Positions 264 to 39,513 of a stretch of DNA of 50,900 nt are shown in pieces. A model generated the notes under the pieces. That model was not told the DNA's origin and ran no database searches. It was given only the letters and a program-made list of their open reading frames with translations. Made by a program: the position numbers and the translations under genes. The stretch covers positions 1-50,900 of the forward strand of contig NZ_JAFUSK010000063.1 of the NCBI RefSeq assembly GCF_017471675.1, written 5' to 3'. Every line of letters starts with the position of its first letter. The first letter of the stretch is position 1. Source of the DNA: Pseudobutyrivibrio sp. (lineage in GTDB: Bacteria > Bacillota > Clostridia > Lachnospirales > Lachnospiraceae).

Positions 264-269
264 TAATTT

Positions 270-482
270 TCAATCCTTCGATTTATTTTCCATCTCTTCA
301 AAAAACAAGCCTGCTATATACAACGCTGATTGTCCATACAGCCCTAAGTCATCATCTGAAAACAATTCTCCTATGGCAGATGTATAAAATCTATCCATAG
401 CTTCTTCATCTGACCAATTATATTTAGATTGAATAATCTTTATTATCTCTGGTAATAAAGTTGCTCGAATAGTTGCATGCAT
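270..482 (-). CDS. Small hypothetical protein, third gene of the DUF3791/DUF3990 cassette
   Basis: This 70-aa protein has no motif I can name. It is predicted helical and acidic, and contains the segment KYNWSDEEAMDRFYTSAIGE. It begins only 2 nt after the stop of the DUF3990 gene, so it is surely cotranscribed and probably translationally coupled. In a cassette with a putative toxin-like ADP-ribosyltransferase fold protein and a DUF3791 protein, it could be an accessory or immunity-type factor; that is inference from position only. It is complete at both ends. Confidence 0.6.
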   Translation of the reverse strand: MHATIRATLLPEIIKIIQSKYNWSDEEAMDRFYTSAIGELFSDDDLGLYGQSALYIAGLFFEEMENKSKD

Positions 483-484
483 AA

Positions 485-979
485 TTAATTCTCCACAATA
501 TATGATTTAATAAATTTTAATGATTTTATTGCCTTTTCAGAGCAAAAAGCAATTTGATTGTTAATCTTTTCAAATTTTAATCTTTCAACAGCATCTTCTT
601 TTCTCATTATTCCTTGAAGGACATAAGAAACTGTTTCACCAACATTATCATCCGCAATTTTACCGCTAACTATATCATATCCATGCTTGAAATTTATATC
701 ACTTCTGCAATTTACAACCATGTCTAACCATTCAAGGGATGCACCTACAAACTCTTTAATTGAACACTCATCACTAGGTTGCCATTCATATATATTCACA
801 ACAGGTAAAACCTTTTTTTGTGCTGTCCTATTTTGAATTTTTGCGCGTCTAATCGCCCATCGTTCTGCCTGTTCTTGTATATCAGTAGTGTAAAATGCAA
901 AACCAAAATCTCTACCAATTTCACTCTTTATGATTTTAGGCTCTTTTATTTCAATAGTTGTTCCATGATATAGTATCAT
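485..979 (-). CDS. DUF3990-family protein with ADP-ribosyltransferase-like fold
   Basis: The protein has 164 aa. It opens with LYHGTTIEIKEPKI followed by GRDFGFAFYTTDIQEQAERW. The pattern YHGT....I..P.......DFG.GFY.T.....A..WA is typical of DUF3990, a family related to the RES/PARP-like ADP-ribosyltransferase folds. The YHGT and FYTT segments would line an NAD pocket, but no catalytic Glu can be assigned with certainty. Its ATG overlaps the stop of the DUF3791 gene in an ATGA arrangement, so the two are translationally coupled. DUF3791-DUF3990 pairs recur in Firmicutes and behave by context like toxin-antitoxin or signalling cassettes; activity here is not shown. Confidence 0.7.
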   Translation of the reverse strand: MILYHGTTIEIKEPKIIKSEIGRDFGFAFYTTDIQEQAERWAIRRAKIQNRTAQKKVLPVVNIYEWQPSDECSIKEFVGASLEWLDMVVNCRSDINFKHGYDIVSGKIADDNVGETVSYVLQGIMRKEDAVERLKFEKINNQIAFCSEKAIKSLKFIKSYIVEN

Positions 980-1176
980 GCCTTCCCTCCATCAAGATAC
1001 TTTCTGCAAAAATCTATCATATATTCTACTCCCATACCGTGTAAATCAGCATAGTCATTCCTAAGTAAATCTAACAGGCCCTGCTCCTTAAATAGCTTAT
1101 ATACATAACTACTGGGTTTCTTAATGTAATCAGCATAATTCTCTATACAAAAAGATATAAACGACACTTTGCTCAT
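976..1176 (-). CDS. DUF3791-family small protein
   Basis: This 66-aa protein (MSKVSFISFCIENYADYIKK at the start, then SSYVYKLFKEQGLLDLL) fits the DUF3791 pattern of an N-terminal FCIE.YA helix and a VYKLF motif. It is the first gene of the three-gene cassette and overlaps the DUF3990 gene by 4 nt. The AGGAGG ribosome binding site lies 8 nt before the ATG and falls within the 3' arm of a strong hairpin, so translation from a read-through transcript should be blocked. As the first and smallest gene it may be the neutralising partner of the DUF3990 protein; this is inference. Confidence 0.7.
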   Translation of the reverse strand: MSKVSFISFCIENYADYIKKPSSYVYKLFKEQGLLDLLRNDYADLHGMGVEYMIDFCRKYLDGGKA

Positions 1177-1222
1177 AAGAAAAAACCTCCTAGAATCATT
1201 TTAAATGACACTAGGAGGTTTT
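1177..1222 (-). terminator. Rho-independent terminator that also buries the DUF3791 RBS
   Basis: On the minus strand, 12 nt at 1222-1211 (AAAACCTCCTAG) pair perfectly with 1193-1182 (CTAGGAGGTTTT). A further 5 bp pair inside a 2-nt bulge, and TTTTTTCTT follows. This is a classical terminator for the lipoprotein gene upstream. The AGGAGG in its 3' arm is the ribosome binding site of the DUF3791 gene, which implies either a promoter inside the hairpin region or translational control of read-through RNA. Confidence 0.75.
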
Positions 1223-1332
1223 ACAATATTTAACTACACCGCAAACTCTATAGTTACCAACAAGAATTCTTAGTCAATATCATCCTTCAACAATAACTTA
1301 TTTAACAAACTTGGACACTTCATCAGCCTTCA

Positions 1333-4354: not shown

Positions 4355-7149
<2,795 letters not shown>

Positions 7150-22223: not shown

Positions 22224-22230
22224 ACATTCC

Positions 22231-24411: not shown

Positions 24412-24415
24412 ATTT

Positions 24416-24841
24416 TTACCTACCCTCAAACAAAAACTGTATTGGCTTAATTTCTTCTACAACTATACTGGCATCATATTTGCCATCAGCAAGAGGAATC
24501 CTGGCGTGTGCTACAGTTCTTCCAAAAGCATCTGTATCTACTGAAGAAATCACATACTCCTGGCCTGCTATTTCAACCTTTGTTCCCGCTTCTATATTGG
24601 AAGCATTATTTTCATCTCTTGTAACCACAATGCTGGCTTCACCCTCAGCAATGATTGCTGAACCATCCACAGTGGTTGTTAGCTTGCCAACAGATGCCCA
24701 GGCAATAAATCCAACAAGAATAAGCAACACAATAAAAAGCACAAGCCATATACTAGGATTTGTTACCTTTAGATAATCCGTTAATTGCTCAGGCGAAGAT
24801 ATTCTATCCATTGTCTTTTTCCTGAAAATTGAATTTTCCAT
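24416..24841 (-). CDS. NHLP-system HlyD-like secretion adaptor, short form
   Basis: About 141 aa. A basic N-terminus with MDRISSPEQLTDYLKVTNPS is followed by one transmembrane helix (SIWLVLFIVLLILVGFIAWA) and a beta-rich extracellular part. The SPEQL..YL.V..P..W motif is characteristic of NHLP bacteriocin secretion proteins. Full HlyD adaptors are longer and have a coiled-coil hairpin, so this is a minimal version or a shortened one. The ATG at 24841 has a GGGGTGG site close before it; an upstream GTG is possible. Confidence 0.75.
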   Translation of the reverse strand: MENSIFRKKTMDRISSPEQLTDYLKVTNPSIWLVLFIVLLILVGFIAWASVGKLTTTVDGSAIIAEGEASIVVTRDENNASNIEAGTKVEIAGQEYVISSVDTDAFGRTVAHARIPLADGKYDASIVVEEIKPIQFLFEGR

Positions 24842-25520: not shown

Positions 25521-26141
25521 TTAACTAAGAACTAGTTTTAAAAACCTGTAAGTAAGTTCATAAATTGACGTTTTAGAATAAGACAATTTCACTTCATTCA
25601 TTGCCTCTATCTGTTTATCAGTAGGATATACGTATGGGGAGATTCCATACATATAAGGGAAAAATGCATATCTTACCTGCTCACATTTATCCTGGTCTAT
25701 ACCTTTTATATTCTTTAATAAGCATTCTTCAAACAGTTCTACTGATTTCTTAAACGCATCCTTGTACTCTATAAGAAGCTCCACTCTGCTGTTATCTTCT
25801 ATTTCATATAAGTTCATGGCCGAAATCTTAAGAAGAGTCTTTCTTTCTTCCATAGACCTTGCTATAGCTTTAGAAAGTCCGTCTACATCCAGCTTTTTGC
25901 CACTATCAATAATATCCTTAAGGCTTTCATTCCATTTAAGATATTCCCTGGTAAGTATTCCTAAAAAAATCTCTTCCTTGGTTTGAAAATAATTATAAAT
26001 GGATGGACGAGAAAAGCTGGTTTCCGTGCTAATATCCTTAATTGTAATGCTCTGAAAGCCCTTTGAATCGTATAGCTTTTCACAAGCATCCATAATCTCT
26101 TCTCTTCGTTTATCAATTGTTTCTTTTAATTCAACTGCCAT
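25521..26141 (-). CDS. TetR-family transcriptional regulator
   Basis: The protein has 206 aa. The HTH is FQSITIKDISTETSFSRPSI followed by YNYFQTKEEIFLGIL. The C-terminal ligand domain resembles TetR_C regulators of membrane or redox genes but is not specific. AAGGAG stands before the ATG. It is the last gene of an operon with the CMD protein; two identical-pattern palindromes upstream of that operon are likely its operators, giving autoregulation. Confidence 0.85.
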   Translation of the reverse strand: MAVELKETIDKRREEIMDACEKLYDSKGFQSITIKDISTETSFSRPSIYNYFQTKEEIFLGILTREYLKWNESLKDIIDSGKKLDVDGLSKAIARSMEERKTLLKISAMNLYEIEDNSRVELLIEYKDAFKKSVELFEECLLKNIKGIDQDKCEQVRYAFFPYMYGISPYVYPTDKQIEAMNEVKLSYSKTSIYELTYRFLKLVLS

Positions 26142-26227: not shown

Positions 26228-26554
26228 CTATTCTCCGTAAACCTCTTTTGCAAGATTAAACACAGCCCATGCCTTTGGCCAACCGGCATAAAATGCCACA
26301 TGAGTAATTATAGCTGCCATTTCCTTTTCAGTCACCCCATGACTTTTAGCATTTTCAATATGATATTTCAAAGAGCTATCTGTTATTCCCTGAGACATAA
26401 GCGCTACAACTGTAATGATACATCTAGTCTTCACATCAATATCCTGATTGTTCCAATTCTCTCCAAACAGCACATCATCATTAAAATGTGCAAACTCTGG
26501 AGCAAACTCTCCTAGCTGATTTCTGCCTGCTGTCTGAACTATCTTTTCACTCAT
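26228..26554 (-). CDS. Carboxymuconolactone decarboxylase/AhpD-like protein
   Basis: The protein has 108 aa and the family pattern FAHFNDDVLFGENWNNQDID, then TRCIITVVALMSQGITDSSL and EMAAIITHVAFYAGWPKAW. The AhpD-type CxxC is absent (the position reads ALMSQG), so it is of the gamma-CMD-like rather than thiol-peroxidase type. It heads an operon with tetR; members of this family in anaerobes often accompany electrophile- or redox-response regulators. Confidence 0.85.
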   Translation of the reverse strand: MSEKIVQTAGRNQLGEFAPEFAHFNDDVLFGENWNNQDIDVKTRCIITVVALMSQGITDSSLKYHIENAKSHGVTEKEMAAIITHVAFYAGWPKAWAVFNLAKEVYGE

Positions 26555-26570: not shown

Positions 26571-26624
26571 ATTGACACTCTGTCAATTTCACTTAATATA
26601 CCACTTTATTGACACATTGTCAAT
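26571..26624 (-). promoter_or_regulatory. Twin TetR operators upstream of cmd-tetR
   Basis: ATTGACA-CTC-TGTCAAT (26571-26587) and ATTGACA-CAT-TGTCAAT (26608-26624) are perfect 17-bp palindromes that differ only in the centre triplet. Their centres are 37 bp apart, close to 3.5 helical turns. TTGACA within each may also serve as a -35 box. Confidence 0.7.
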
Positions 26625-26642: not shown

Positions 26643-27569
26643 TTATTCACAGTAATTTAACATACCACATGCTGCGTTTATATCGTTGCCATACAAGGTT
26701 ACAATGTCTGTTTCAACATCATTCAATATCATCAAATAATAATAAAACAATTTATATTGCTTTTCCTCTGGGGATTTAAAATTTTTTCCAGTCTCAGAAT
26801 ATTTACCCAGAGTGACATGCACATAGTTTTTATCAATCATTTCCACTAATCTCTGAGCATGACAAACAGAATAATTATTTCCACCATTTGGATATTCAAA
26901 CAGTACATAATTACATATCAGCTTTGTACCAAATTCCTTTGCAAGCTCTTGAAAATGTGAAATTATATTCGCTATTTCATACTTGTTTGCCACAACCGGC
27001 ATTATGTACTTTCTCTCCTCATTAAATGAAGTGTGAACAGAAAGCTTAACCTGAAACTCTACGTCACAATATACATCATGTCTTTTACCAAAATATGAAC
27101 GGTATGTCTCACATAATTTAATATTTCCAGAGCTGGAAACTCTAAGAATCAGCTTATCATATTTGTCAGATATACATTTGTACATTTCATCATATGCACC
27201 AAAGCAATTATCAATATTGTAGCTGGCCTCACCCATTCCTTCAAAAATAACAGCAATTCTTTTATCAGATGTATCTTCAACCATATCATCTAACATTTCT
27301 AAGCCTATTTCTATTTCATCTTTTATTTCCTCTACCGTCAGGTTTCTTACAAAGGCTTGATCTCCTGTGGCACAAAATCTGCATTTTTCCGGACATCCAA
27401 TCTGAGATGAAACGCAAATAACACACTCGTTTTCTTCTGGAACATAAAAAGCAACCGCATAATATTTCTCGATTCCATTCTCAAAGTAGATAGCCTTCTG
27501 AAGCTTATCTTCCTTTGATTTTAATATTTTCACAGCACAGCTTTTACGATTTTTTACCATTTCACACAT
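26643..27569 (-). CDS. Shortened RlmN/Cfr-like radical SAM methylase
   Basis: The protein has 308 aa. The core is RlmN-like: CVICVSSQIGCPEKCRFCAT gives the CX3CX2C cluster (Cys59, 63, 66), and Cys52 stands where Cys118 stands in E. coli RlmN. FEGMGEASYN replaces FMGMGEPLLN, and Cys301 (NAACGML) corresponds to the methyl-carrying Cys355. The N-terminal accessory domain of about 65 residues is missing. It is the last gene of the biosynthetic operon (its ATG overlaps the preceding stop as TGATG), so it may methylate a peptide or carrier-bound product rather than rRNA. That role is inference. Confidence 0.8.
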   Translation of the reverse strand: MCEMVKNRKSCAVKILKSKEDKLQKAIYFENGIEKYYAVAFYVPEENECVICVSSQIGCPEKCRFCATGDQAFVRNLTVEEIKDEIEIGLEMLDDMVEDTSDKRIAVIFEGMGEASYNIDNCFGAYDEMYKCISDKYDKLILRVSSSGNIKLCETYRSYFGKRHDVYCDVEFQVKLSVHTSFNEERKYIMPVVANKYEIANIISHFQELAKEFGTKLICNYVLFEYPNGGNNYSVCHAQRLVEMIDKNYVHVTLGKYSETGKNFKSPEEKQYKLFYYYLMILNDVETDIVTLYGNDINAACGMLNYCE

Positions 27570-29950
27570 CAGTTGTATAATCTCCCTTTATCTTTTAATG
27601 TTCTCTTTTTCAACACACCGTCAGTAGATGAAAACATATATGCTCCATTTGTTCCATCAGCAGCTAAAACAGAATACTTTTTTTCATCATCAACACATAC
27701 TACCGCTCCATCTTCAATAGCCAGTGCATTTTTTAAGTTTTTTCTTTTAAGCTCCTTCAAAAATTCTAATGATTTATAAGGCTCGGAAGAAAAATGTGGG
27801 GTCATAATAATATTCAAAACATTATACCCATCCATAAGAGAAAACATATTTTCATCAACATCCGCATAAAATTTTTCACATAGTATTCCTGCTCCGGCAC
27901 AAACACCCATCATTATTTTTTCTTTACTATATTTCTTAATATATGAACCAATGTCATACTGTTGAAACTGGTTATATAGCCTGATGTAATCTCCGCCCCC
28001 AATATAAATACATTTAGCCCATCTTATAGTATTAATAAAAAATTCTTCATTCAGCATTAGTTCACTATCAAAAACTATAGATTCATATCCATATTTATCA
28101 AAAATACTTTTTACGATATTTCCATACTCTACTGGTGTAGTGCTATGAAGGGTGTATATCAACACCTTTTTATTATCTTCAATATAAAACTCAGAAAGAA
28201 TTTTATTTAAATTCTCTGCCTCGTAATAATTGGTCTGTAATCTCTCGCTACCTCCACTCAATATGAAAATATCCCCATTTTTCAAAGGCTTCTTATCGTC
28301 ATTTTCCTTGTTCATTCGTGCATAGGTTAACAAATCTCCAAAAGTATTTATGGTAAATGAACTGTCAAAAAAACTATGACCTACTGAATCTGTCAAATCT
28401 ACCAGTAACCCAATCATTTCTATAGAAGACAGATAATTGTCTATTCGTTCATTTTTAATTGACTCAAAATCCAACCCAACAGTCTGTGATATTCTGTTAA
28501 TCAGCACATCACTGTTGCTACTGAATCTTTCCCTATACATATCAAGTAATTTTGTACTGTCAATCTTCCCATTTCCTGTTCTGGGAATTTCTTTACAACT
28601 AAAGAAAACTGATGGCAACTCGTAATTTGACAGTATATTTGACAACTTGGCCTTTACATTCATAGGGTCCATATAAGAAACATAGAAGCAAATTATGCCC
28701 TTATTGGTTTTGTCGTATATACATGTGGCATCTTCGATATAGAACTGTTTAAGAATGGTTTCTGTAATATTTTTAATATTGATTCTGTATCCATTAACCT
28801 TCAAAACAGAGTCTTTTCTACCTACAATAATCAGACCACCGTCATCCGTATAATAAGCCAAATCACCGGTAGGATATACAGTTCCAATCTGTTCATCAGC
28901 TTTACATGAAACATATTTTCCAAGACACAATCCCTTGATAAACAATTCCCCGATTTCACTTGATTTTTTCACAATACCATTTTCGTTTTCCAAGTGAATT
29001 TCAACATTGGAAATCGGATAAATAGCTGCCGCCTCATTCTCTTCTCGCCTAAAATCCACAAGTCCTATACAGCAGCCAATTGTCGCCTCTGTAGGTCCAT
29101 AATGATTAAAAATCTTACAGTTGTTTAGCAGTATATGTAAATCACGGCAGATAGCATAATCAAACCTCTCTCCACCACTAATAATTTTTTTTAGGGATTT
29201 CAGCTCTCCGATATTAGGAGATTTGACCATCATTCTAATTATTCCTGGAGTGGTCTTCATCAGTGTAATTTTATTTTCTGCTATATAATTTATTAAATTT
29301 TTCTCTATTGGTAAATGCTTTGGAAATATGTATATGCTACCTCCTGACAGTAACACAGGAAAAATTCCTGAATAAGCCAAATCGAATGCAAATGAAGTGG
29401 TTATAATAGATTTATCTCTACCAGTTATTCCTATTGTCTCTATGATGCTGTTACAATAATTCAACAGATTGCTATTTGATATAACACACCCTTTAATTTT
29501 TCCTTCTGTCCCAGATGTATATATGACATAAACCTCAGAATCAGCATCATGACAATCACGAAATTCAATAGTGTTATTTGAATAATCATAATCGTCATCT
29601 AGAGATAGCTTCTTACTAAAACACTCTCTTATTCCATTATCCGGGTTGAAGTCGCTGTATAAAAATAATGCACCTGTCTCTTCAGCAATTCTTTCAATTT
29701 TCTCTTTATCCAAACCTGTATGTATAGGACAAAAAGTTTTTCCTGCCATCATAGCTGAAAGCATCAACGTCAGTGTATAAATATTATTATTAGCTGCAAA
29801 AGCAACTCTATTGCAATCTTTACAGAAATAAATAATCTTAGAGTAATATATAATTCTTTCTTTTAGCTTGATTCCGCTTATTTCCACTACTCCATCACTA
29901 AACTTATTTTTTGCTGATAGTTTATCTCTTATCAAATCTATGACTCTCAT
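27569..29950 (-). CDS. Adenylation-carrier protein fused to an S51-like hydrolase
   Basis: About 793 aa. Residues 1-480 form an ANL adenylation domain: YTSGTEGKIKG (A3), NHYGPTEAT (A5), YPTGD (A7), GRKDSVLKVNGYRIN (A8) and PRTGNGKID with the A10 Lys. Residues about 490-560 look like a carrier domain whose LSSIEMIGLLVDL helix could hold phosphopantetheine on Ser. Residues about 575-793 are peptidase-S51/dipeptidase-E-like: FILSGGSERL, IGGGDYIRLYNQFQQ, GVCAGAGIL and TPHFSS. The usual nucleophile Ser of G.SAGA is Cys684 here. It likely activates an amino acid and releases or transfers it. The ATG at 29950 is 13 nt past the preceding stop. Confidence 0.8.
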   Translation of the reverse strand: MRVIDLIRDKLSAKNKFSDGVVEISGIKLKERIIYYSKIIYFCKDCNRVAFAANNNIYTLTLMLSAMMAGKTFCPIHTGLDKEKIERIAEETGALFLYSDFNPDNGIRECFSKKLSLDDDYDYSNNTIEFRDCHDADSEVYVIYTSGTEGKIKGCVISNSNLLNYCNSIIETIGITGRDKSIITTSFAFDLAYSGIFPVLLSGGSIYIFPKHLPIEKNLINYIAENKITLMKTTPGIIRMMVKSPNIGELKSLKKIISGGERFDYAICRDLHILLNNCKIFNHYGPTEATIGCCIGLVDFRREENEAAAIYPISNVEIHLENENGIVKKSSEIGELFIKGLCLGKYVSCKADEQIGTVYPTGDLAYYTDDGGLIIVGRKDSVLKVNGYRINIKNITETILKQFYIEDATCIYDKTNKGIICFYVSYMDPMNVKAKLSNILSNYELPSVFFSCKEIPRTGNGKIDSTKLLDMYRERFSSNSDVLINRISQTVGLDFESIKNERIDNYLSSIEMIGLLVDLTDSVGHSFFDSSFTINTFGDLLTYARMNKENDDKKPLKNGDIFILSGGSERLQTNYYEAENLNKILSEFYIEDNKKVLIYTLHSTTPVEYGNIVKSIFDKYGYESIVFDSELMLNEEFFINTIRWAKCIYIGGGDYIRLYNQFQQYDIGSYIKKYSKEKIMMGVCAGAGILCEKFYADVDENMFSLMDGYNVLNIIMTPHFSSEPYKSLEFLKELKRKNLKNALAIEDGAVVCVDDEKKYSVLAADGTNGAYMFSSTDGVLKKRTLKDKGRLYN

Positions 29951-29963
29951 AGTTTCTTCTCTC

Positions 29964-30824
29964 TTATAAATAATTTCCAAGGCATTTATATGAAAAACAA
30001 GCCCCATCATAATTCCTTTTGTTTTTCTCTACTGCCGTTAAAAAAAAATCTTTATCTCTGACATTGCCATACATAAGACTTTTATTTAGAAAACATGGAC
30101 CAACGTTCCCGTCAGCAAAAACAATATAGTTATTTTTGCATCCATAACATACTGAAGGGGTAAAATTCCTGTTTTGCAAAACTACCTTTAACAATCTATA
30201 TTTAACATGATTGTTAAAATCATTAGCCCACTCTTCTAAATCCTCCACAACACGCTGTATTTCCTTTGGAGTCAATTTTTCTATGGATAGCTCACTAGAA
30301 TTATCTATGTTTAAAAGCTCAAACTCCAGATTAAAACCATTTTCCTTACAATATACGTTAATATCTCTTATCTCACTAACATTGTATCTGGAAAGCACAC
30401 ATACCAGAGCTATTGGTACATGGACTTCATTTTTTATCTGCTGGATATTATTTAAAATTTTATCTCTATGACCTCTGACACGATCATGATAATCAGAATG
30501 AATGCTGTCCACACTAACATGAATTTCAACATTATATTTTTTTATCACCTGAAGAACTCTTTCGTCATTTAATAAAAGACCATTAGTAAGTATCAGTATA
30601 TGTTCAGTGTATTTTGATACTAAATCTACTGCCTCTCCAAAATCCTTATAGAGTAAGGATTCGCCACCTGTTAATGCAATATAATCAATTTTATCTTTTT
30701 CAGAAAACTCTTTGCATACCTGCTCGATTACTTCCAATGACTGGCAGCTTTCATCGCTCTTCTCAGCATTGCAATATACACAGTTCATATTGCATTTTTG
30801 AGTTAATTCAAAAGTTAATCTCAT
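29964..30824 (-). CDS. Radical SAM enzyme with partial C-terminal twitch/SPASM
   Basis: The protein has 286 aa. The cluster is Cys11/Cys15/Cys18 (CNMNCVYC), then IALTGGESLLYKDFGE and HVSVDSIHSDYHDRV of the MoaA/SPASM type. The C-terminal CYGCKNNYIVFADGNVGPC plus CFSYKC could bind one auxiliary cluster, fewer than a full SPASM domain. It is translationally coupled to the M1-like gene (start and stop overlap by 4 nt). Substrate inferred to be the operon's peptide or a modified amino acid. Confidence 0.8.
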   Translation of the reverse strand: MRLTFELTQKCNMNCVYCNAEKSDESCQSLEVIEQVCKEFSEKDKIDYIALTGGESLLYKDFGEAVDLVSKYTEHILILTNGLLLNDERVLQVIKKYNVEIHVSVDSIHSDYHDRVRGHRDKILNNIQQIKNEVHVPIALVCVLSRYNVSEIRDINVYCKENGFNLEFELLNIDNSSELSIEKLTPKEIQRVVEDLEEWANDFNNHVKYRLLKVVLQNRNFTPSVCYGCKNNYIVFADGNVGPCFLNKSLMYGNVRDKDFFLTAVEKNKRNYDGACFSYKCLGNYL

Positions 30825-31546
30825 AGTCTATTTCCCAATTCATGAACAAAATTTTTATAAAGTTCTACATTTTTGGACTGCTTCAAACATGCGTATAATT
30901 CATCCGTATCCACCCCAGCCATGGAACTTAATTCCATAAATTTGTTTATATTAATAACTTTTATCTCACGCATTTCCTTCAGTAGTTTTTTCAGCTTTAT
31001 GTCATCTACCATCCAAAAATAATATATAAATAACAGGACTCCTCTGGACTCTACGGTAGCCTTGTTTTCGTCATCACTCGTATTATTTCCAGCCTTGACC
31101 AATGAAACATCATGTTTCGCATGTGTAAAATACCTGTCAAAATAAAAACCGAGCAGCCTTTTAGCCATAGCTTTATTTGACTCTAAAAGATATCTCCACT
31201 GCATGTATTCTGTGAAGCTTTCCATCATCCATAATTTGCCTTCACCTTCAAATCTTATTTGGTTTCCTATTATTTGATGGAATATCTCATGTGGAAAATA
31301 TAGGTACATTGCCACATCTTTCAATTTGATTAATTCCGATTGAAAAATCACCTTTTTTTCCATGCTTATACTAAGGGCAGGAATATTATCATCCAGAAAT
31401 ATATTCACATTTAAGTCCTGGCCGGTAACGCTAGAATAATACCTTGAAATCTCTAAAAGATATGTCTCAGAACTGTTGATATTGCTATAAAAGACATCGT
31501 CGCAAATCTGGACTTTTCCATTCTCTATTTTATAGCAAAGCAACAT
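30821..31546 (-). CDS. M1-like gluzincin metallopeptidase
   Basis: About 241 aa from the ATG at 31546 (GTGAGGA before it). The zinc site is exact for gluzincins: His86-Glu87-xx-His90, then 18 residues, then Glu109 in LWMMESFTEYM, with GNQIRF after the helix as in M1 aminopeptidases. The long N-terminal beta domain and GxMEN exopeptidase loop of M1 enzymes are missing, so it is a minimal catalytic unit. It overlaps the M29-like gene by 17 nt. It may trim a peptide leader or a product. Confidence 0.7.
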   Translation of the reverse strand: MLLCYKIENGKVQICDDVFYSNINSSETYLLEISRYYSSVTGQDLNVNIFLDDNIPALSISMEKKVIFQSELIKLKDVAMYLYFPHEIFHQIIGNQIRFEGEGKLWMMESFTEYMQWRYLLESNKAMAKRLLGFYFDRYFTHAKHDVSLVKAGNNTSDDENKATVESRGVLLFIYYFWMVDDIKLKKLLKEMREIKVININKFMELSSMAGVDTDELYACLKQSKNVELYKNFVHELGNRL

Positions 31547-32420
31547 TTTTCTTTTCCTCACCAAAATCCACTAAACACTTGGTACCACTGTATAGGGAGA
31601 ATTTTTCAAATACTATATCAAAGTGATATCCCTCTTTAATATTTCCTCCAAAGGAGGTATTATCCCCAAACCCCAGGTGGCAGGTTTTATACGCCTTCTC
31701 TGATATGTCTAACTTGTCAGTAGGTGGCAGGAAGGAATTTATTCCCATCCCAAATTCACATATGACGATTTCACCGTAATCCTCTGTAACCACATGGTTA
31801 TTTATAACGTCATATTTTTTTCCGAAGATAACTATAACTCCATTTGCACTTCCTTCTTTTATTGCAAAAAAAACTTCACCTGATGGTATCTGAAATACTC
31901 CATTGTTTTCTCTGTCATTTTCTCCATCAATTATGTCTTCCAAAATATCAGTTGCTCTACTAAAAACCAAATCTGTTCCTGATTTTGTCTTTAATCTAAA
32001 ACTACTTGAATCACCAAGAGACTTTTTGTATATCTCTGCCTTTTTTTTCATATCTGCCACTGGACATCTATATGACTTCATGTATATTTTTTGAAGAATA
32101 CCATAAAATTTCTTATTCTTTATTCTCCTGTCAGGAACAGATACCCAGATTATTTCACCAGGCATATTTTCTATACTTTGAAGTTTTTGAAATATTATGG
32201 GGCTATCGTCATAAAATAAAGGATGAACAAAAATAACAGTTTTAAATGTTCCACTTTCATTTTCTCCATAAAAAAGTTCTGCACCTCTGGCATAAGGGAT
32301 ATATCCCTCCTCTAGCTTCCATAGGAGTATATCTTCACATTTTTTTGTGGCCAAAGCCTTTATTATCCTGGCCTCTTTAGAGTACTCACTTTTGAATAAT
32401 ATAATCACATGACTATTCAT
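31530..32420 (-). CDS. M29-like (thermophilic aminopeptidase) protein
   Basis: The protein has 296 aa. The C-terminal half follows the M29 pattern: FRLKTKSGTDLVFS, QIPSGEVFFA with the metal Glu, CEFGMGINSF, and HLGFGDNTSFGG followed by YHFDIVF with the late His and Asp ligands. Its N-terminal half is divergent and shorter than in the family (about 400 aa), so activity is probable but not certain. Its start overlaps the MFS stop by 8 nt, showing tight translational coupling. Confidence 0.7.
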   Translation of the reverse strand: MNSHVIILFKSEYSKEARIIKALATKKCEDILLWKLEEGYIPYARGAELFYGENESGTFKTVIFVHPLFYDDSPIIFQKLQSIENMPGEIIWVSVPDRRIKNKKFYGILQKIYMKSYRCPVADMKKKAEIYKKSLGDSSSFRLKTKSGTDLVFSRATDILEDIIDGENDRENNGVFQIPSGEVFFAIKEGSANGVIVIFGKKYDVINNHVVTEDYGEIVICEFGMGINSFLPPTDKLDISEKAYKTCHLGFGDNTSFGGNIKEGYHFDIVFEKFSLYSGTKCLVDFGEEKKNVALL

Positions 32421-33621
32421 AGCTGACTCCTTTAAGCTCTCTAAATTTATTTATAAATCTCATTGTAAACAGTAAAGATGTAAACTCACATATAAGTGCC
32501 ACTGCCCATACAAATCTGTATCCCGTTGTGTCTATAAGACTGCCTAAACAAAAAGTAATCAATATTGCTAACAGGGTTTTTACAGATGATATTCCAGAAT
32601 AAAAAGAAGCTCTGTTATCGCTGGAAATATAATCATTTCTCCATATTGAAATCGATGTGTTTGTAATTGAAAAGAACATTTCAAAAATCAAAAATCCCCC
32701 AATAGCAACCCAAAGGTTATTAGTTGCAAATAAGATTACAAAGCTAATAATCATTCCAATTCTTCCTAGAATGCATATCGTATATCCGTCAAGATACTTA
32801 TGCAAAAACGAGGTGACGAAATTACCGAGAGCCATCACCAGTGTGAAGCACACAAAAAGCACACTTATTGCCTTCTCCGTTAGTGAAAACTTGTTCAACA
32901 CGAATAATTGCCATGTAAAAATGAATACTGAAAATGCCGCATAATCAAATGACTCAAAATATAACATTCCACGCATTCTCTCATCAGCAAAAAAGGAAAC
33001 ACTAAATTCTTTCATTGTGCTAAAGAAATTATTGCCTACATGTTTTCCCTTGTTATCCTCAAATATAAATAAGAATAAAATTCCAAATACAATTACAGCG
33101 ATTCCACCTATAATCAGTGGTAAATTCTTATTTACAATTACAAATGCTATTGCAGCAATATTTGCTCCTGTAGTAATAAGCTTAACAGCGCCAGACATTT
33201 TAGGAATAATACGTTCACGTTCACTAAGCTTGTCTTTCCTTACTAATGTGTCATAGAACCAAGCCTGTGGAGAACCTGAAAACATTGCAGTAGCAAATGC
33301 TATCAATACAAAAACCAGCAATAAGGTAAGAAACGACTTACAGATTGTTAAAAGAATCAGACCTCCTCCATATAAAATCAAAGATAATGCAGCAGTCTTC
33401 TTTCTTCCCACATAATCAGAAATTACTCCCGATGGAAAATCAAAAATCAGTGTACAGACTTCTTTAATTCCAATAATGATGGCTATATTTCTTACTGACA
33501 GGCTGGAATTCAGCATGATCATGTAAGAGATTCCATAGAAATAATCTGCCACCTGATACACTCCCATCAAAAGGGTGTACATTACTATCAAAAATTTAAA
33601 ATTATCTTTTTTCTCTACCAT
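32413..33621 (-). CDS. MFS transporter
   Basis: The protein has 402 aa and about twelve transmembrane helices. The MFS loop motif FDFPSGVISDYVGRKKTAAL lies between helices 2 and 3. Sitting inside the biosynthetic operon, it is the likely exporter of the final product. It overlaps the following M29-like gene by 8 nt. A stem-loop separates it from the preceding peptidase gene. Confidence 0.85.
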   Translation of the reverse strand: MVEKKDNFKFLIVMYTLLMGVYQVADYFYGISYMIMLNSSLSVRNIAIIIGIKEVCTLIFDFPSGVISDYVGRKKTAALSLILYGGGLILLTICKSFLTLLLVFVLIAFATAMFSGSPQAWFYDTLVRKDKLSERERIIPKMSGAVKLITTGANIAAIAFVIVNKNLPLIIGGIAVIVFGILFLFIFEDNKGKHVGNNFFSTMKEFSVSFFADERMRGMLYFESFDYAAFSVFIFTWQLFVLNKFSLTEKAISVLFVCFTLVMALGNFVTSFLHKYLDGYTICILGRIGMIISFVILFATNNLWVAIGGFLIFEMFFSITNTSISIWRNDYISSDNRASFYSGISSVKTLLAILITFCLGSLIDTTGYRFVWAVALICEFTSLLFTMRFINKFRELKGVSYE

Positions 33622-33653
33622 TATTCTTGTCCTCTCTAGTGCTAAAATCTCAT

Positions 33654-33685
33654 GGATAGCGAATTTCTGATGAAATTCGCTATCC
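33654..33685 (-). promoter_or_regulatory. Perfect 14-bp stem-loop between peptidase and MFS genes
   Basis: GGATAGCGAATTTC (33654-33667), loop TGAT, GAAATTCGCTATCC (33672-33685). The TAG stop of the peptidase gene lies inside it. No T-run follows on the minus strand, so RNA processing, stability or attenuation is more likely than termination. Confidence 0.65.
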
Positions 33686-35083
33686 TATATGTTCCCGAAG
33701 GTGATAAAAAGATGCTCCACTATGCATCGTCATATCCGTTAATACATCAAAGCCAACTGCTTTGTATAAATGATAGTAAGCTGCAAAGCCTACAAAATAA
33801 TCCATCTTCTGCTCTGAATCTATAATTGCTGTTATCAATATACTGTTTGTTTCTTCAGCAGATAAACTAAAGGTTGACTGAAGCCAGTTAAAAATATCTT
33901 CCCGTTTCGATTTGTGATACCAGTATTTAATACTTGTAATCCCTACCAAAACATTATTTAAAAGCTTTTTTGATACCGTTTTTTTATATAGATTACAATC
34001 ACACCTGGTAATGGAATAATATTCACACATTAACGCCCAGCCTTCCCAAAATGAGCGTTCTTTAAAAATGTAATTTGTTCTGCCGCTGTAATATCTGGAC
34101 ATAAAAAAATGCCCAGGCATTACTTCATGTATCATAATTTCTAACTTCTTTTCATTAGAATTAATTTCTCGATTATTTATGCTTAAAAGTACATCTTGAT
34201 CATAAAATTTTAATGATGCTCTGCAGCTTTGAGTATTGTTCTCGTAAGATTTATTAAAAATCCTGTACTCATCTATATCTTCTGCCATACCATTTAAATC
34301 TTTGAACAAAGCTTTTATATAAATAACCCAATCTATAATTGAATCCGAATCAAACTCAATATCAATAAAGTCATCAGCTTCATTTTTCAAGGTTTGCCAC
34401 AGGAAGTTTAGATGCTCAGCCAACTCCATTAAATTCTTATATATATCATCTGTCGATAAAATGCCATCACAGGTGTTTTCAATGTTTTGGTAATATCTTA
34501 ATGTCTTTGTATTGCCAATCTTATTACCAGCTATCGCTAGTTTACTTTCAAGGAAAAACTGAAATTTATTTTTAGCGTCAAAATATCTTTCATCAAGGTA
34601 TTCTTTTGCCTTTGTTTCAATTAAATTACAGGTTCTGTCGAATGATTTTTTTGTATTTATGATTTCAATTTTTGATAAATATTCATCCTTAATATTCGAA
34701 TACGCCTGACTTACAATCATATCCAGATAATCCAGTCTCTTCAGAAACAACTCTAAGTTCTTCTCTGAAGAATCTGTTATGGATAATGATTCAAGCAAAG
34801 TCAGAAATGCTCTACTATAATAAAACCCCGTATATCTCGCATAATCCTCATCTTCAATTTCCTGAATCAACATATTAATTCTTTTTATTATCAGGAAATT
34901 TTGATAATACTCTGAATTAAAATAATCTCTATATTCTTTTAAATCAGCCAAAAAACCATTTATACTGTCAAGACTATAATCTCCAAGGGAGTCGATTATT
35001 ATTCCGTATTCACCAGCTAATCCCGGATAAAATGAAAAAACACGATTTATGAAGTTTTCCACCATTGTTTCTTGATAATTCAT
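33680..35083 (-). CDS. DUF885-family metallopeptidase-like protein
   Basis: About 467 aa, mostly helical. The zinc site is HEVMPGH (His319, Glu320, His325) followed by FWEGWALMCEYY with Glu347, as in DUF885/M32-like carboxypeptidases. The start at 35083 follows GAGGA; an upstream in-frame start overlaps the hairpin at 35107. It is the first gene after the precursor peptide and could remove C-terminal residues or a follower from it. No signal peptide is present, so it acts in the cytoplasm. Confidence 0.72.
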   Translation of the reverse strand: MNYQETMVENFINRVFSFYPGLAGEYGIIIDSLGDYSLDSINGFLADLKEYRDYFNSEYYQNFLIIKRINMLIQEIEDEDYARYTGFYYSRAFLTLLESLSITDSSEKNLELFLKRLDYLDMIVSQAYSNIKDEYLSKIEIINTKKSFDRTCNLIETKAKEYLDERYFDAKNKFQFFLESKLAIAGNKIGNTKTLRYYQNIENTCDGILSTDDIYKNLMELAEHLNFLWQTLKNEADDFIDIEFDSDSIIDWVIYIKALFKDLNGMAEDIDEYRIFNKSYENNTQSCRASLKFYDQDVLLSINNREINSNEKKLEIMIHEVMPGHFFMSRYYSGRTNYIFKERSFWEGWALMCEYYSITRCDCNLYKKTVSKKLLNNVLVGITSIKYWYHKSKREDIFNWLQSTFSLSAEETNSILITAIIDSEQKMDYFVGFAAYYHLYKAVGFDVLTDMTMHSGASFYHLREHIG

Positions 35084-35106
35084 AAAAACATTCCTCAACT
35101 CAAATA

Positions 35107-35129
35107 AGGGCAAGAATTTAACTTGCCCT
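35107..35129 (-). promoter_or_regulatory. Attenuator-like hairpin downstream of the precursor gene
   Basis: AGGGCAAG (35107-35114) and CTTGCCCT (35122-35129) form an 8-bp stem with a 7-nt AT loop, 12 nt after the precursor stop. There is only a weak ATTTGAG tail, so read-through is expected. This is a common arrangement to give more precursor than enzymes. Confidence 0.6.
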
Positions 35130-35140
35130 CAAAGTACCGA

Positions 35141-35290
35141 TTAGTTCTCGTTCTCAGCTGCTGCTAAAGCTTCAACTAACTCCTGCTCTAATACAGCATA
35201 CTCTTCCTCATCCATGAGGCACTGACTATGAGATCTCATGCAGATATCACCATAGTTTACGTTTGAAAGATTTACTCTCTTCTCTACCAT
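35141..35290 (-). CDS. Precursor-like peptide of the biosynthetic operon
   Basis: 49 aa from the ATG at 35290, which has GGAGG at good spacing; the in-frame ATG at 35296 is too close to that site. Residues 1-16 are mildly basic (MVEKRVNLSNVNYGDI). Cys17 and Cys24 frame MRSHSQ, and residues 27-49 form an acidic alanine-rich helix (DEEEYAVLEQELVEAL). No double-glycine site and no known leader type are seen. Position as first intact gene, small size and the hairpin behind it argue for a RiPP precursor or scaffold, possibly with a C-terminal follower. Confidence 0.6.
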   Translation of the reverse strand: MVEKRVNLSNVNYGDICMRSHSQCLMDEEEYAVLEQELVEALAAAENEN

Positions 35291-35323
35291 AGCCATTTTC
35301 CTCCCTTCTGATTTAACCAAGTT

Positions 35324-35354
35324 ATTATAACTACTAAAACTCTTATATTAAGAG
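35324..35354 (-). promoter_or_regulatory. Promoter and palindromic operator of the biosynthetic operon
   Basis: On the minus strand TATAAT (35329-35324) lies about 30 nt before the precursor start. The -35 area is weak and is covered by a perfect palindrome CTCTTA-TAT-TAAGAG (35340-35354), which suggests a regulated promoter. Confidence 0.45.
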
Positions 35355-35365
35355 GATTAAATCCG

Positions 35366-35671
35366 TTATCTGGATAACAACCATCTGAACATGGATAACA
35401 TAAATTTGCACTTTTCCATATTCTGGCCATTTACGCACATACGTTGTTCAATTGAACAAGGTCCTACGCATACATTTCTTAGTGGACAGGCAGCACATTT
35501 TGAACTTTCACTTGGCTGGAATGACCACTTTTCACTAACAATTCTGTCTCTACAATCATCAAAGGTCGTAAATTCTCTATCATTCTTTTTTACGATACAG
35601 TTGGAAATCGTACCATCGCTGCCTACATAAACACCAAATGAATTACTATTGCCATTCTTTTTAAAACTCAT
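35366..35671 (-). pseudogene. C-terminal SPASM fragment of a radical SAM maturase
   Basis: A 101-aa frame with GVYVGSDGTISNCIV, CAACPLRNVCVGPC and MEKCKFM: the spacing of seven cysteines is that of a SPASM domain C-terminus. The radical SAM barrel is absent. An in-frame TGA lies 5 codons before the first ATG and 7 nt from the IS3 element, so the frame is broken even outside the element. It precedes the precursor gene on the same strand, so the operon probably once had its own SPASM maturase. Confidence 0.7.
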
Positions 35672-35722
35672 ACTGGTCCTGCGTCAAGATTTAGTACAAA
35701 TTAAAATGAGAGGTTCTGTCAG

Positions 35723-36547
35723 TTAAGCAACTGACAGAGACTTCACCCTTTCATACAATTTTTCATATTCATCAGGAGACAAGTAGTCGCAGTGACTATG
35801 AATCCTGACGGTGTTATAGAATGCTTCTATATATTCAAATACAAGCATATAAGCATGCCTGTAATCGGTGATGTTAAATCTATTAAGCCATTCTCTTTTG
35901 ATTAAAGAATGGAAGGATTCGATGCAGGCGTTGTCATAAGGATAGCCGCTATGCGAGTAGCTGCGCTGCATCTTTTTCGTAGCTTCTTGCCAGGCCTTTG
36001 AAACATACTGACTACCACGGTCAGAGTGGATAATTAAAGGTAAATCGGTATTGCGTCTAGCCTTAGCTTTTTCAATAGTTTCAATGACTGTAGAAACCTC
36101 CATGGTTTCTGCAAGAGTCCAGGCAATGATTTTCCTGGCAAATAAGTCCATGACACAGTTCAGATATACGAATCCGTTCTGAGTCCAAATATATGTGATA
36201 TCAGTGCACCAAACAGCGTTTGGGCGGTCTGGATTGAATTGTTCATCAAGTATGTTGTGAAGCTCTTTGCTAAAATCAGAGTCTCTGGTTGTAGTAGTCC
36301 AAGGCTTCACCCACTGGGCTTTAATGCCCATTTCGCGCATGTATAAACCTACAGTGCGGGTAGATATGGTTTCGCCAGAATCACGAAGTTTCTTAGCTAT
36401 TTTAGGGGCTCCGTAGTTCTGTTTAGAATCATCATAAATCTTCTGGATTTTCTTTTTTATCGAATCTTTTCGTTGTTTTGTAGTTGAAACTTTACGATTA
36501 AGAAAAGAATGATATCCAGAGCGAGACACACCTAAAAATTTCAGCAT
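35723..36547 (-). CDS. IS3-family transposase, OrfB (DDE catalytic part)
   Basis: The protein has 274 aa. The DDE residues are seen in WCTDITYIW, IHSDRGSQY and YDNACIESFHSLIKREWLNR, the standard IS3 pattern. An N-terminal HTH region (GVSRSGYHSFLNRK) matches HTH_21. The real product is probably an OrfAB fusion made by -1 frameshifting, with the orfB frame reading back through SGERLTEAIYTEVSAK into the slippery site. No frameshift or stop is seen, so the element may be active. Confidence 0.92.
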   Translation of the reverse strand: MLKFLGVSRSGYHSFLNRKVSTTKQRKDSIKKKIQKIYDDSKQNYGAPKIAKKLRDSGETISTRTVGLYMREMGIKAQWVKPWTTTTRDSDFSKELHNILDEQFNPDRPNAVWCTDITYIWTQNGFVYLNCVMDLFARKIIAWTLAETMEVSTVIETIEKAKARRNTDLPLIIHSDRGSQYVSKAWQEATKKMQRSYSHSGYPYDNACIESFHSLIKREWLNRFNITDYRHAYMLVFEYIEAFYNTVRIHSHCDYLSPDEYEKLYERVKSLSVA

Positions 36548-36624
36548 TCCAGAAGTAGAAACACGGTGTCCTGTAACTTTAGATGCCTCTACCTTTGCAG
36601 AAACTTCTGTATAGATAGCTTCTG

Positions 36625-36924
36625 TTAGTCTTTCCCCAGAATGCTGATGGCTTTTTTTAACACATCAAGTGCATCCTGAGCATCACGTAACTCTCGTTTG
36701 AGACGAGCAATTTCTTTAGCTTCGTCTGATTCATAGTTGCCAGATCCTCTGACGGGAATATCACCGTCATGGTCTCTATACTGGGCTTCCCAGCGAGCTA
36801 AGGTGCTAACACCTATTCCTAGATTCTTGGCGCATTCAGCTTGGGTTAAATCAGGATGTTCTCTACGATAGTTGATAGCATCCAACTTGAATTGCTTGCT
36901 GTGTTGTTTTCTTTGACGTGACAT
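36625..36924 (-). CDS. IS3-family transposase, OrfA
   Basis: About 99 aa from the ATG at 36924 (GGAGG 8 nt before). The HTH is KQFKLDAINYRREHPDLTQA with GVSTLARWEAQY, followed by a leucine-rich coiled coil (EIARLKRELRDAQDALDVLK) that multimerises with OrfB. It ends shortly after the AAAAAAG slippery sequence. Confidence 0.9.
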   Translation of the reverse strand: MSRQRKQHSKQFKLDAINYRREHPDLTQAECAKNLGIGVSTLARWEAQYRDHDGDIPVRGSGNYESDEAKEIARLKRELRDAQDALDVLKKAISILGKD

Positions 36925-36989
36925 AATGAGTTCCTCCATTTGTTGATTATACAATACTTGAAGGGGATATCTCATTTTGTTTTGTACTA

Positions 36990-39513
36990 TTTAGATGCTA
37001 ACACTACAAAGGCATATAATGCTGATTACGAGATGAAGCTTGCAAGGGATATTTATAACAGGGGTGAAGTTAAGGTTGCTGGAAAGACTGCTCTAGCAAA
37101 GATTTCTCATGTACTAATTAGCTACAACAGAATGATGGATAGCAAAGCCAGAGTTGATGTCCAAATGAAAAAAGAAAGACTATTGGCTGAGACAGAGTTT
37201 TCAGAAGATCTCAAAAAACTTTTTGAAGAGTTTGGCATTAATGCAGAAGATTTTGAATCCAAAAAAGAAGAATTAGAAAAAGAATTAGCAGAGGACGCCA
37301 AGAGAGAGCAGGAAGAGGAAGAGGCAGAGGAAGAAGAAACAGAACAAGAAGAAACAGAAGAAAAAATAAATGAGCAAGAAGAGGAACAGCCTGAGGAAGA
37401 AGAGCAAGAAGATACTAATAAGGAGCCAAAAAAAGAACTAGAAGTTATAGAAGAGGTAGCAGCAGAGCTAGAAGAAGACCATGAAGAGCCAGTAAAAGGG
37501 CTAGAGGTCATAGAAGAGGTGCCGGAAGAATTAGAGGAAGACCATGAAGAGCCAAAGAAAGAACTAGAAGTTATAGAAGAGGTTGCAGAAGAGTTAGAAG
37601 AAGATCATGAAGAAGATGAAGAGGAAGAAGATGATGATGAAATAACAGTTTCTCCAGAAGATGAATTAAAAGAAGAGCTGAAAATGAGGTATAGGGAAGC
37701 TAAAAGTAAATATGATTATAAAATGGAGATGCTTCAAGATAAAGCTGATAAAAAAATTGAGAAGGATGCAAAAAACAATACAAACAGGGATGAAGTGGGC
37801 GGAATATTAGCTACATTAATGCTTGGTGGAGGTGCTGTTGGTTCAGAAGGTTTTAGTCTTACTACCGGGGATACCATGGATCTTATGACAGGCGGTAAGT
37901 ACATAGAGAAGGTAGCTTCTGGTAAGGGAACACTGTTTGATCAGATGGCACTTTTAGATAATGCAGTGAATACAAATGGTATTGAGTTAAATAATGAAAA
38001 AGAAGTAGATGTTAGAAAAGATGTAGATGATGCCTATATCGGTTCTTCAATAAAGGGAGCAAAATATTCTCTTAATGATATTCTTTTTAAAGGGACTGAC
38101 AAGGATATAGAATTTATCAATGCTTCAAGGTATAAAAATGAACCAGGCACAAAGTCTATCGCAACTGAAAAGATAGCTTTGGATTTTGATGCAATAAAAA
38201 CTGAAAAGAATTCTAGAAAATTAGCTGAAAAAAATAAAGATGGTTCAAATGAGAAAAATGATAAGAAACTGACAATAAAGGAAGCTTATGAAAAGAGAAA
38301 GGAGCTTGATGTATTTAATAGAAATAGAGATGATTTAAATATATATAGTGACGAAATCAATGAGATGCTTGAAAATTCTGTAGTGCCTCTTAAGCCTATC
38401 GCAGACCATTCTAAAAAGACAAGAAGGTCTTCAAGTAAGGAGCTTAGAGAAGCAAGAAAAGCTTGGGAAGCAAGGATGATTAAGGTTAGAGAGGGCAGAA
38501 GAGTACATAATATAAAGGTGGCAGATTATACCTACAATAAAAATGATGTTGACTACAAATCTATTCCTACACTAAACGAAGAACAGTTAAAGGCTAGTAG
38601 GGAAGCAATGGGAAAAGACGATAAGTCTGTGAAAAATATGATATTTGCCTATAGGGTTATGGGAGCCACACCAAAGGAACTATATTTATTCAGGCTTGCT
38701 ATTATTGCTTATATGATTCCAACTGGCAAAAAGACTTTGCGAGAAATTTTAACAGAGTCTGCCGAAGCAGGTTACATTGGCAATGAGGACTTGACCACAG
38801 ATGAATCTATGTATTCAACATTCTTAGATGCGCCAGTTATTGATTACAATTTTGTAAATAACTATGGCAAGGAAGATTTTAGAAAGATAGATAGGTATAA
38901 GAAGGTAAAGCTTGAGAATGAAAATCCAGAAAGCAAGGAAGAAAAAGAAAAACGCTTAGCTGACAAATGGAAAGTGGATGAAGAATTCTTAGAAACTGAT
39001 GAAGATGAAGAAGAAAAAGACGAAGTGGAAGAAGCAGATGAAAATGAGGAAGTAGAAGAGCAAGAAGAAGTAGAAGAAACAGATGAAGAAGCTATTTCCA
39101 AATCGCCAGAGGAAGCAAATGAAGAAATAGAATAGGAAATTACGGAGGAGTTAAACGGGGCTAGTGAAGAAATCGATTTAAGTGAAGAAGGGGAATTAGG
39201 TGAAGAAAGTGAGGTTGATGAAGATAGGAAAGAGCAGGGAAATGAAATACAGGCAGATATAAAACCTAAAGATAAGCTGGAAAACCCTGTGGAAACTATC
39301 ATAAAAAAATTTATAAGTAATGGTCAAAGGCAAAATGATGATGCAGTAAAAATATTTAAAGATTTAAGTGTGATTATTGATAAAAAAAGGCTAGAATTTG
39401 GACTAACCGAAAATGATATTTCACTATTAGCTGAACACTTAAATGATGATAGTAAAATATTTAAGAATGGTTTGCTAAGAATAATTAAAAAAGTGGTTGA
39501 AGAAAACAAATGA
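36990..39513 (+). pseudogene. Broken gene for a highly acidic protein (5' end missing, amber stop inside)
   Basis: The frame enters from the right end of the IS element (first native codons LDANTTKAYNADYEM) with no start or RBS of its own, so the 5' end is lost. It runs to a TAG at 39133-39135 and then continues open in the same frame for another 125 codons to 39513, ending IIKKVVEENK. The protein is a coiled coil followed by a Glu-rich region (about 100 to 240), including three 21-residue repeats, and then a globular part with FAYRVMGATPKELYLFRLAI and MIPTGKKTLREILTES. The function is unknown; it heads the AAA+ gene set. Confidence 0.65.
37423..37611 (+). repeat. Three tandem 63-bp repeats coding for Glu-rich motif
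   Basis: Units 37423-37485, 37486-37548 and 37549-37611, each translating as EP.K.LEVIEEV..ELEEDHE with few substitutions. They are in frame and keep the reading frame. Such repeats expand and shrink by slippage and give a flexible, strongly acidic linker. Confidence 0.85.

Follow-up and report, generated by a model that had tools for sequence, protein, structure and literature searches.

We examined a 50,900-nucleotide stretch of a Pseudobutyrivibrio sp. genome (assembly GCF_017471675.1, contig NZ_JAFUSK010000063.1, positions 1 to 50,900), hereafter the window. The subject of this study is a gene set at 26643-35671, where the open reading frame listing gives nine features on the minus strand: part of a radical S-adenosylmethionine (SAM) maturase (rSAM1), a 49-aa precursor-like peptide, three metallopeptidase-like proteins of the DUF885, M29 and M1 types, a major facilitator superfamily (MFS) transporter, a second radical SAM protein (rSAM2), an 813-aa fusion of an adenylation and an S51-like domain, and a short RlmN/Cfr-like protein. 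Because a core of this set recurs in four actinobacterial clusters together with a shared precursor motif, the operon is taken as real, and most likely as a pathway of the ribosomally synthesized and post-translationally modified peptide (RiPP) type rather than a chance assembly.

Gene organization of the locus

From the MFS gene to the RlmN-like gene, the minus strand carries a continuous run of overlapping genes. With the listed starts, the MFS and M29-like genes share 8 bases, the M29-like and M1-like genes 35, the M1-like gene and rSAM2 4, rSAM2 and the 813-aa gene 47, and the latter and the RlmN-like gene 1. A sequence-only reading of the same DNA had proposed such an overlapping or touching run of enzyme and transporter genes, and an overlap (1-47 bases) is indeed found at every joint between the MFS and RlmN-like genes. 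The same reading placed the 49-aa peptide at the head of the operon; the peptide is present (35141-35290), but as the second gene, after rSAM1. It had also counted two radical SAM enzymes, thereby missing a third, the main maturase rSAM1, the 3' part of which lies at 35366-35673. A terminator-like hairpin, possibly an attenuator, was detected on the minus strand 3' of the peptide (35105-35131), and a strand-neutral 14-pair palindrome between the DUF885-like and MFS genes (33654-33685). Because of these two elements, the supposed single operon may not be one uniform transcript. The pattern scan found 10 terminator-like sites in the region against 4.7 (standard deviation 2.3) expected.

The window peptide, with the core GDICMRS, was aligned with the precursors of the four relatives. 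All five peptides (49-66 aa) contain the invariant Gly, Ile, Cys, Arg and Ser of the motif G[DN]ICxRS, together with a basic N-terminal stretch and a Leu/Ala-rich acidic tail, and the pairwise scores between the window peptide and the relatives were reached by 24, 2, 0 and 4 of 5000 shuffles. The conserved residues lie mid-peptide, and the C-termini differ among clusters in length and sequence; the G[DN]ICxRS core would be the modified part of the precursor. In all five clusters the precursor gene stands beside modifying enzymes and is conserved with them, as expected of a RiPP. The expectation that homologues would keep a two-Cys peptide held for the peptide, which belongs to the core of all four relatives, but not for its Cys count, which is three in Streptomyces and one in each of three Glycomyces.

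The peptidase genes encode a DUF885-like metallopeptidase (33680-35113; HEVMPGH and EGWA motifs), an M29-like metallopeptidase with a cluster-type HLGFGDN motif (31530-32420) and an M1-like gluzincin peptidase (30821-31564; HEIFHQ and a distal Glu). The earlier assignment of three metallopeptidases is backed by their motifs and by catalytic residues kept in the relatives: E182, E222, H248, H266 and D268 are invariant in the M29-like alignment, and H92, E93, H96, Q97 and E115 are kept in the five-row M1-like alignment. It is weakened by the Pfam scores, all of which fall below the cut-off (M1, 25.3 of 27.7 bits; DUF885, 20.6 of 32.4; M29, 15.6 of 27), despite the presence of the HEIFH, HEVMPGH and EGWA motifs. 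rSAM2 (29964-30824) is a short, 286-aa protein with a Pfam Radical_SAM domain and SPASM-type C-terminal Cys residues; Cys 11, 15, 18, 226, 244, 276 and 281 are invariant in the five clusters. The MFS protein (32413-33621; MFS_1, 3e-18) is a likely exporter and shows weak kinship to tetracycline-type efflux pumps in NCBIfam.

rSAM1 is split by an IS3-family insertion element (about 35674-37006, minus strand), which scores above the cut-off of NF033516 (transpos_IS3) and is multicopy in the genome; its extent was judged from shared contig ends and flanks. The minus-strand 3' part (35366-35673) corresponds to the SPASM domain of a 440-aa-type radical SAM maturase and matches residues 348-439 of Streptomyces rSAM1 (E 5e-12); its 101-codon frame (35366-35671) also weakly matches a SPASM model in NCBIfam. 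The 5' part is located on another contig of the same genome (C49; locus L084, about 114-1226, minus strand) and matches residues 15-338 (E 1e-46). When the Streptomyces protein was compared with the source genome, it aligned to C49 114-1064 (query 15-338), to the window fragment (query 348-439) and to a third, unrelated place (E 2e-15). The first bases of C49 belong to the right-hand end of this IS3. In the alignment, the end of the C49 row and the beginning of the window row lie only a few columns apart, barring seven leading window residues aligned elsewhere, so the split has cost rSAM1 little or no sequence. In the source genome, the pathway is probably inactive. About 95 residues precede the radical SAM domain of rSAM1; Pfam names no domain in this part, to which no tool specific for RiPP recognition elements was applied. 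Among the NCBIfam models, the closest by E-value is the PapB ranthipeptide maturase, below its cut-off; Streptomyces rSAM1 reaches 119.3 of 340 bits against this model (NF047865).

Four left and four right flanks of the IS3 copies were read, giving 16 comparisons. Three-base pairs connect the window left flank with the C49 right flank (TAC), the C41 left flank with the window right flank (CAA), and the C22 left flank with the C69 right flank (ATA), while the remaining pair, C34 and C66, has ACTA in common; by an arithmetic estimate, about 0.25 three-base pairs would be expected by chance. Since these pairs tie the left side of the window to C49 and its right side to C41, they indicate that two IS3 insertions are cross-joined at 37006/37007, by assembly mis-join or recombination. 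With such a cross-join, the genes right of 37006 probably belong elsewhere and are not neighbours of the operon, and the right flank of the IS3 was accordingly discarded as an operon neighbourhood. That flank includes proteins of 731 aa (36940-39135), whose frame starts within the IS3 element, and 915 aa (40079-42826), neither with a Pfam or PHROG match at E 0.001. Upstream of rSAM1 on C49 lie a 601-aa helix-turn-helix protein (HTH_3; L084 1438-3243, minus) and, facing its gene, a 39-aa signal-peptide-like frame (L084 1292-1411, plus), perhaps a peptide-pheromone/receptor pair. Downstream of the operon are a carboxymuconolactone-decarboxylase-type gene (26228-26554) and a TetR-type gene (25521-26141). 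The former has its own extended -10 promoter-like site (26595-26623, 11/12 matches, in a scan with 63 sites found against 54 expected), which suggests a separate unit, and it was left out of the operon. Additionally, two adjoining 732-aa ATP-binding cassette (ABC) transporters, one with a C39 peptidase domain and of the type exporting double-glycine peptides, are encoded at 20040-24429.

Related clusters and their distribution

A plasmid search with the M29-like protein returned two records, and NZ_CP109164.1 from Streptomyces sp. NBC_01727 carries a related cluster in the order 66-aa peptide, 442-aa rSAM1, M29-like, M1-like, radical SAM, MFS, class II aminoacyl-tRNA synthetase (aaRS)-like, FAD oxidoreductase and P450. 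Pairwise comparison with the window gave E 7e-35 for rSAM2, 5e-17 for the MFS protein, 5e-12 for the SPASM fragment and 1e-7 for the M1-like protein. The aaRS-like gene was found in 3 of 22 Glycomyces genomes, and these three share an identical order of peptide, rSAM1, M29-like, M1-like, rSAM2, MFS, aaRS-like and P450. Wider samples add no further cluster of the Glycomyces type (class, 1/394; order, the same 3/298).

The core common to the window and the four actinobacterial clusters thus comprises precursor, rSAM1, M29-like, M1-like, rSAM2 and MFS genes. The window rSAM2, M29-like protein, MFS protein and SPASM fragment match all four relatives at E 1e-3; the window M1-like protein matches the Streptomyces protein only, through which the Glycomyces M1-like proteins were recognised. 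M29-like, M1-like and rSAM2 form a kept gene block, whereas the positions of MFS, peptide and rSAM1 differ from those in the window. No match to the fusion, the DUF885-like protein or the RlmN-like protein was found in the 20-25 kb loci of the four relatives, to which this search was limited. Where the window has the adenylation-S51 fusion, the relatives have the class II aaRS-like enzyme, so that an activation enzyme accompanies the core in 5/5 clusters. Since the aaRS-like enzyme stands in the place of the fusion, amino-acid activation seems to be a constant step carried out by unrelated enzymes. Nine of 12 PDB matches of the actinobacterial aaRS-like protein are aspartate-tRNA ligases and three are lysine-tRNA ligases.

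As first framed, the neighbourhood prediction that homologues of the 813-aa fusion keep the same neighbours could not be borne out, since no second fusion turned up in the family sample or the contig scan; in its wider form it succeeded, the core recurring in four actinobacterial clusters with an aaRS-like gene replacing the fusion. Among the other 396 genomes of the family sample, none gave an E 1e-40 match reaching the S51 part (two best candidates scored per genome), and one scan of the genome contig collection gave no relative of the 813-aa protein. Six other genomes of the 397 in the family sample, counting its own, matched at E 1e-40 over the adenylation part only; one of these six loci was read and proved to be an ordinary nonribosomal peptide synthetase (NRPS). 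On plasmids, no match among 1885 records covered 80% of the fusion.

For the M29-like protein, a DNA pattern of the cluster type matched only the window and Streptomyces copies among 66 loci, including 19 generic M29 loci (L026-L044). Across 84,980 genomes (one per species) it matched two contigs, one of Glycomyces paridis with the cluster and one of a Methanocella metagenome-assembled genome with the M29-like gene only; the pattern disallows Val at one site and missed the two further Glycomyces clusters, making this a lower bound. The Methanocella gene (L067, about 4917-5417) has the cluster-type GDN motif, and its 8-kb stretch contains no other cluster gene at E 1e-3. Matches to the M29-like protein also occur in 28 other genomes of the family sample; 20 of the 28 regions were examined and contained no other operon gene, save one weak radical SAM match, and a scan for the peptide motif that included those M29 loci yielded two candidates, the window and the Streptomyces plasmid, its two other matches being interrupted by stops. 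In the class sample (361 genomes), two more M29-like proteins lie in regions without other cluster genes. An M29 match on a Niallia plasmid was rejected as a cluster member, with a generic-type motif and no annotated gene at that place.

Viral contigs gave no match to the DUF885-like protein or the M29 pattern, and none of their 25 radical SAM loci found by rSAM2 alignment carried a non-radical-SAM cluster gene. Plasmids gave no match for the DUF885-like protein and no second cluster at ≥60% identity with rSAM1, the Streptomyces M29 or the aaRS-like protein, with 206 weaker rSAM1 records falling outside this check; 240 RlmN/Cfr-type plasmid records were counted as sequence matches. Among the papers listed from one open-access library, which does not cover subscription papers, none could be recognised by its title or the start of its abstract as a description of the gene set. 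As far as these searches show, the family is rare and undescribed, with an exchangeable amino-acid activation step. Annotated IS6 transposases surround the Streptomyces cluster (L065 968-1687, 6780-7499 and 20190-20909, two with the same protein accession), which suggests that it is mobile.

The adenylation-S51 fusion and the RlmN-like protein

The 813-aa protein (27569-30010, minus strand) consists of an adenylation domain (about 64-494), an acyl carrier protein-like linker of unproven function and an S51-like domain (about 583-777). The proposed adenylation/S51 fusion is supported by both Pfam domains (AMP-binding, 4e-47; Peptidase_S51, 3e-14 and above the cut-off with 53.6 of 23.9 bits), albeit with the S51 nucleophile Ser replaced by Cys704. 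The carrier of the earlier adenylation-carrier-hydrolase description was not established: Pfam lists no carrier domain at E 0.1 on this protein, and when three small carrier profiles were applied, the score of the window sequence was equalled or exceeded by 25, 209 and 850 of 2000 shuffles; one of the profiles had already given a negative result in a previous run. Neither a condensation nor a thioesterase domain is listed by Pfam on the 813-aa protein. A structure model of residues 486-813, built without alignment, was discarded as unusable (mean pLDDT 43.6).

The equivalents of Asp235 and Lys517 of the NRPS adenylation domain are present as D210 and K482. Alignment to GrsA, with numbering confirmed by 1AMU, gave the pocket code DLSKIGHIGK; position 331, where the aligner gave C, was set manually with no gap, and the Lys517 equivalent was placed by the NGK motif. 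Against the classical codes, the window code is identical at 8/10 positions for Asp and 6/10 for Asn, and His at 322 favours Asp. The code points to a domain selecting Asp, less likely Asn. In a published survey, DLTKVGHVGK belongs to Asp/Asn domains, the majority of that group's sequences favouring Asp, and DLTKIGEVGK also fits beta-cyano-alanine (PMC12283262); the window code is identical to each of these two at 7/10 positions.

In the S51-like domain, Cys704 occupies the usual Ser position and His739 of the PHF motif is kept. Ser is found at the nucleophile site in cyanophycinase (7uqv) and in three of six comparators, those three being the ones caught by the motif pattern. S51 enzymes act on Asp-containing bonds. 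Because Cys replaces Ser with the His retained, and because of this preference for Asp-containing bonds, we favour the reading of the domain as a probable Cys-type aspartyl transferase.

The RlmN-like protein (26643-27569, minus strand; 308 aa) carries Cys52, Cys59/63/66 and Cys301, that is, the CxxxCxxC motif and two extra catalytic Cys residues characteristic of class A radical SAM methylases. NCBIfam places it with RlmN and Cfr, below both cut-offs (115.5 of 290 and 95.6 of 530 bits), and alignments to PDB structures begin at RlmN residue 106 and Cfr residue 78, the N-terminal domain being absent. In the genus sample, 27/28 other genomes contain a match (28-32% identical, listed frames 355-379 aa), as does a second gene in the source genome; these longer proteins look like housekeeping RlmN. 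The short enzyme is a candidate for either a non-RNA substrate or a self-protection role.

Proposed pathway, alternatives and known systems

In the pathway we propose, the SPASM enzyme rSAM1 and then rSAM2 would modify the precursor core, and the M29-like and M1-like peptidases, joined in the window by the DUF885-like protein, would trim the precursor to a small modified peptide or amino acid. A dedicated enzyme would activate an amino acid and join it to this fragment: a class II aaRS-like ligase in actinobacteria, and in the window the adenylation domain predicted for Asp with the S51-like Cys domain as probable aspartyl transferase. A methyl group may be added by the short class A radical SAM enzyme, and export of the product would fall to the MFS protein. 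The same combination of precursor, radical modification, peptidases, activated amino acid and MFS export was the central idea of the sequence-only reading, and it is strengthened by four relatives with the same core and motif. We hold a rare RiPP-type pathway of this kind, exporting a modified, trimmed precursor joined to an activated amino acid, to be the better-supported account, with moderate confidence. The more specific version is a tentative proposal with chances well below even: a new RiPP family in which a radically modified and digested peptide yields a small molecule that is aspartylated by a repurposed NRPS-like adenylation enzyme, its S51 dipeptidase fold, with Cys for Ser, running in the bond-forming direction. 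In this version the substrate of the class A methylase would be a peptide or small molecule and not RNA.

Several points weigh against the proposed pathway. rSAM1 is broken in the window genome; the fusion, the DUF885-like protein and the RlmN-like protein are known with the shared core only in the window; the carrier domain is unproven; and the window code is as close (7/10) to a published Asp-type as to an Asn-type code. Furthermore, the amino acid used may differ between the two activation enzymes, because the aaRS-like protein has Leu where aspartyl-tRNA synthetase has an Asp-binding Lys. What the sequences show directly are the common gene set, the precursor motif, the catalytic motifs, the pocket code and the split rSAM1; the product and each chemical step are predicted from these.

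Alternatively, the amino acid could be joined to a reusable peptide scaffold, radically modified there and cut off by the peptidases, as in pearlin biosynthesis. The published tmo pearlin cluster likewise combines a small acidic peptide, an activation enzyme, radical SAM enzymes, a metallopeptidase and a transporter (PMC9303977). We regard this as unlikely, given that no PEARL (lantibiotic-dehydratase-like) gene occurs among the Pfam-scanned genes, in the window operon or in the Streptomyces cluster (loci only), and that the conserved residues lie mid-peptide while the C-termini vary. Slightly less probable still is an ordinary radical-SAM peptide antibiotic or signal with self-protection, in which protection would come from ribosome methylation by the RlmN-like enzyme and from inactivation of the product by the peptidases or the fusion. 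RlmN/Cfr kinship and the resemblance of the MFS protein to tetracycline-type pumps speak for it, but the RlmN-like protein has no counterpart to the N-terminal part of either RlmN or Cfr, its gene is missing from the relatives' loci, and the M29-like/M1-like/rSAM2 block kept in 5/5 clusters fits biosynthesis better than immunity. An accidental or decaying collection of unrelated genes would agree with the broken rSAM1, the rarity of the set and the three genes so far confined to the window; it is largely refuted by the shared core, six components of which occur as a set in another phylum, their catalytic residues conserved. The remaining frames listed in the window are also long, and most of them overlap. 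We consider this reading very improbable.

The proposed RiPP-type pathway unites ribosomal-peptide and nonribosomal logic in one gene set, the core of which is kept between phyla. Two unrelated enzyme types in one activation slot make the role of this step testable, relatives with unbroken rSAM1 allow laboratory work to avoid the broken copy, and the motif G[DN]ICxRS is usable for genome mining. The set also contributes two enzyme candidates: a class A radical SAM methylase that would act on a substrate other than RNA, and an S51 aminoacyl transferase of the Cys type.

Compared with known systems, the window RlmN-like protein shares with RlmN/Cfr methylases the CxxxCxxC motif and the Cys residues of CVSSQ and GNDINAACG, aligned to both catalytic Cys, and differs in its 308-aa length without the N-terminal domain and in its location within a biosynthetic operon. 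The fusion has the AMP-binding fold and an Asp-type pocket in common with NRPS adenylation domains, but has no listed condensation or thioesterase domain and an unproven carrier; its second domain has the fold and PHF His of peptidase family S51 (PepE, cyanophycinase), but with Cys instead of Ser and in one chain with an adenylation domain. Pearlins (3-thiaglutamate, 3-thiahomoleucine, ammosamide) likewise involve a small peptide and an added amino acid and, in the tmo cluster, a radical SAM enzyme, a metalloprotease and a transporter (PMC9303977), whereas the window set has an adenylation-S51 fusion, or an aaRS-like enzyme in its relatives, in place of a PEARL, and conserved residues mid-peptide. 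The nearest model is provided by the SPASM radical SAM RiPPs, PapB-type ranthipeptides in particular, in which a short precursor with Cys in its core likewise accompanies a SPASM maturase that is extended at the N-terminus. The window-type set differs in its motif G[DN]ICxRS, in missing the model cut-off, and in adding a second radical SAM enzyme, two or three metallopeptidases and an amino-acid-activating enzyme. The precursor-plus-SPASM logic is already known, and it is the activation and S51 step that could raise the novelty of this family.

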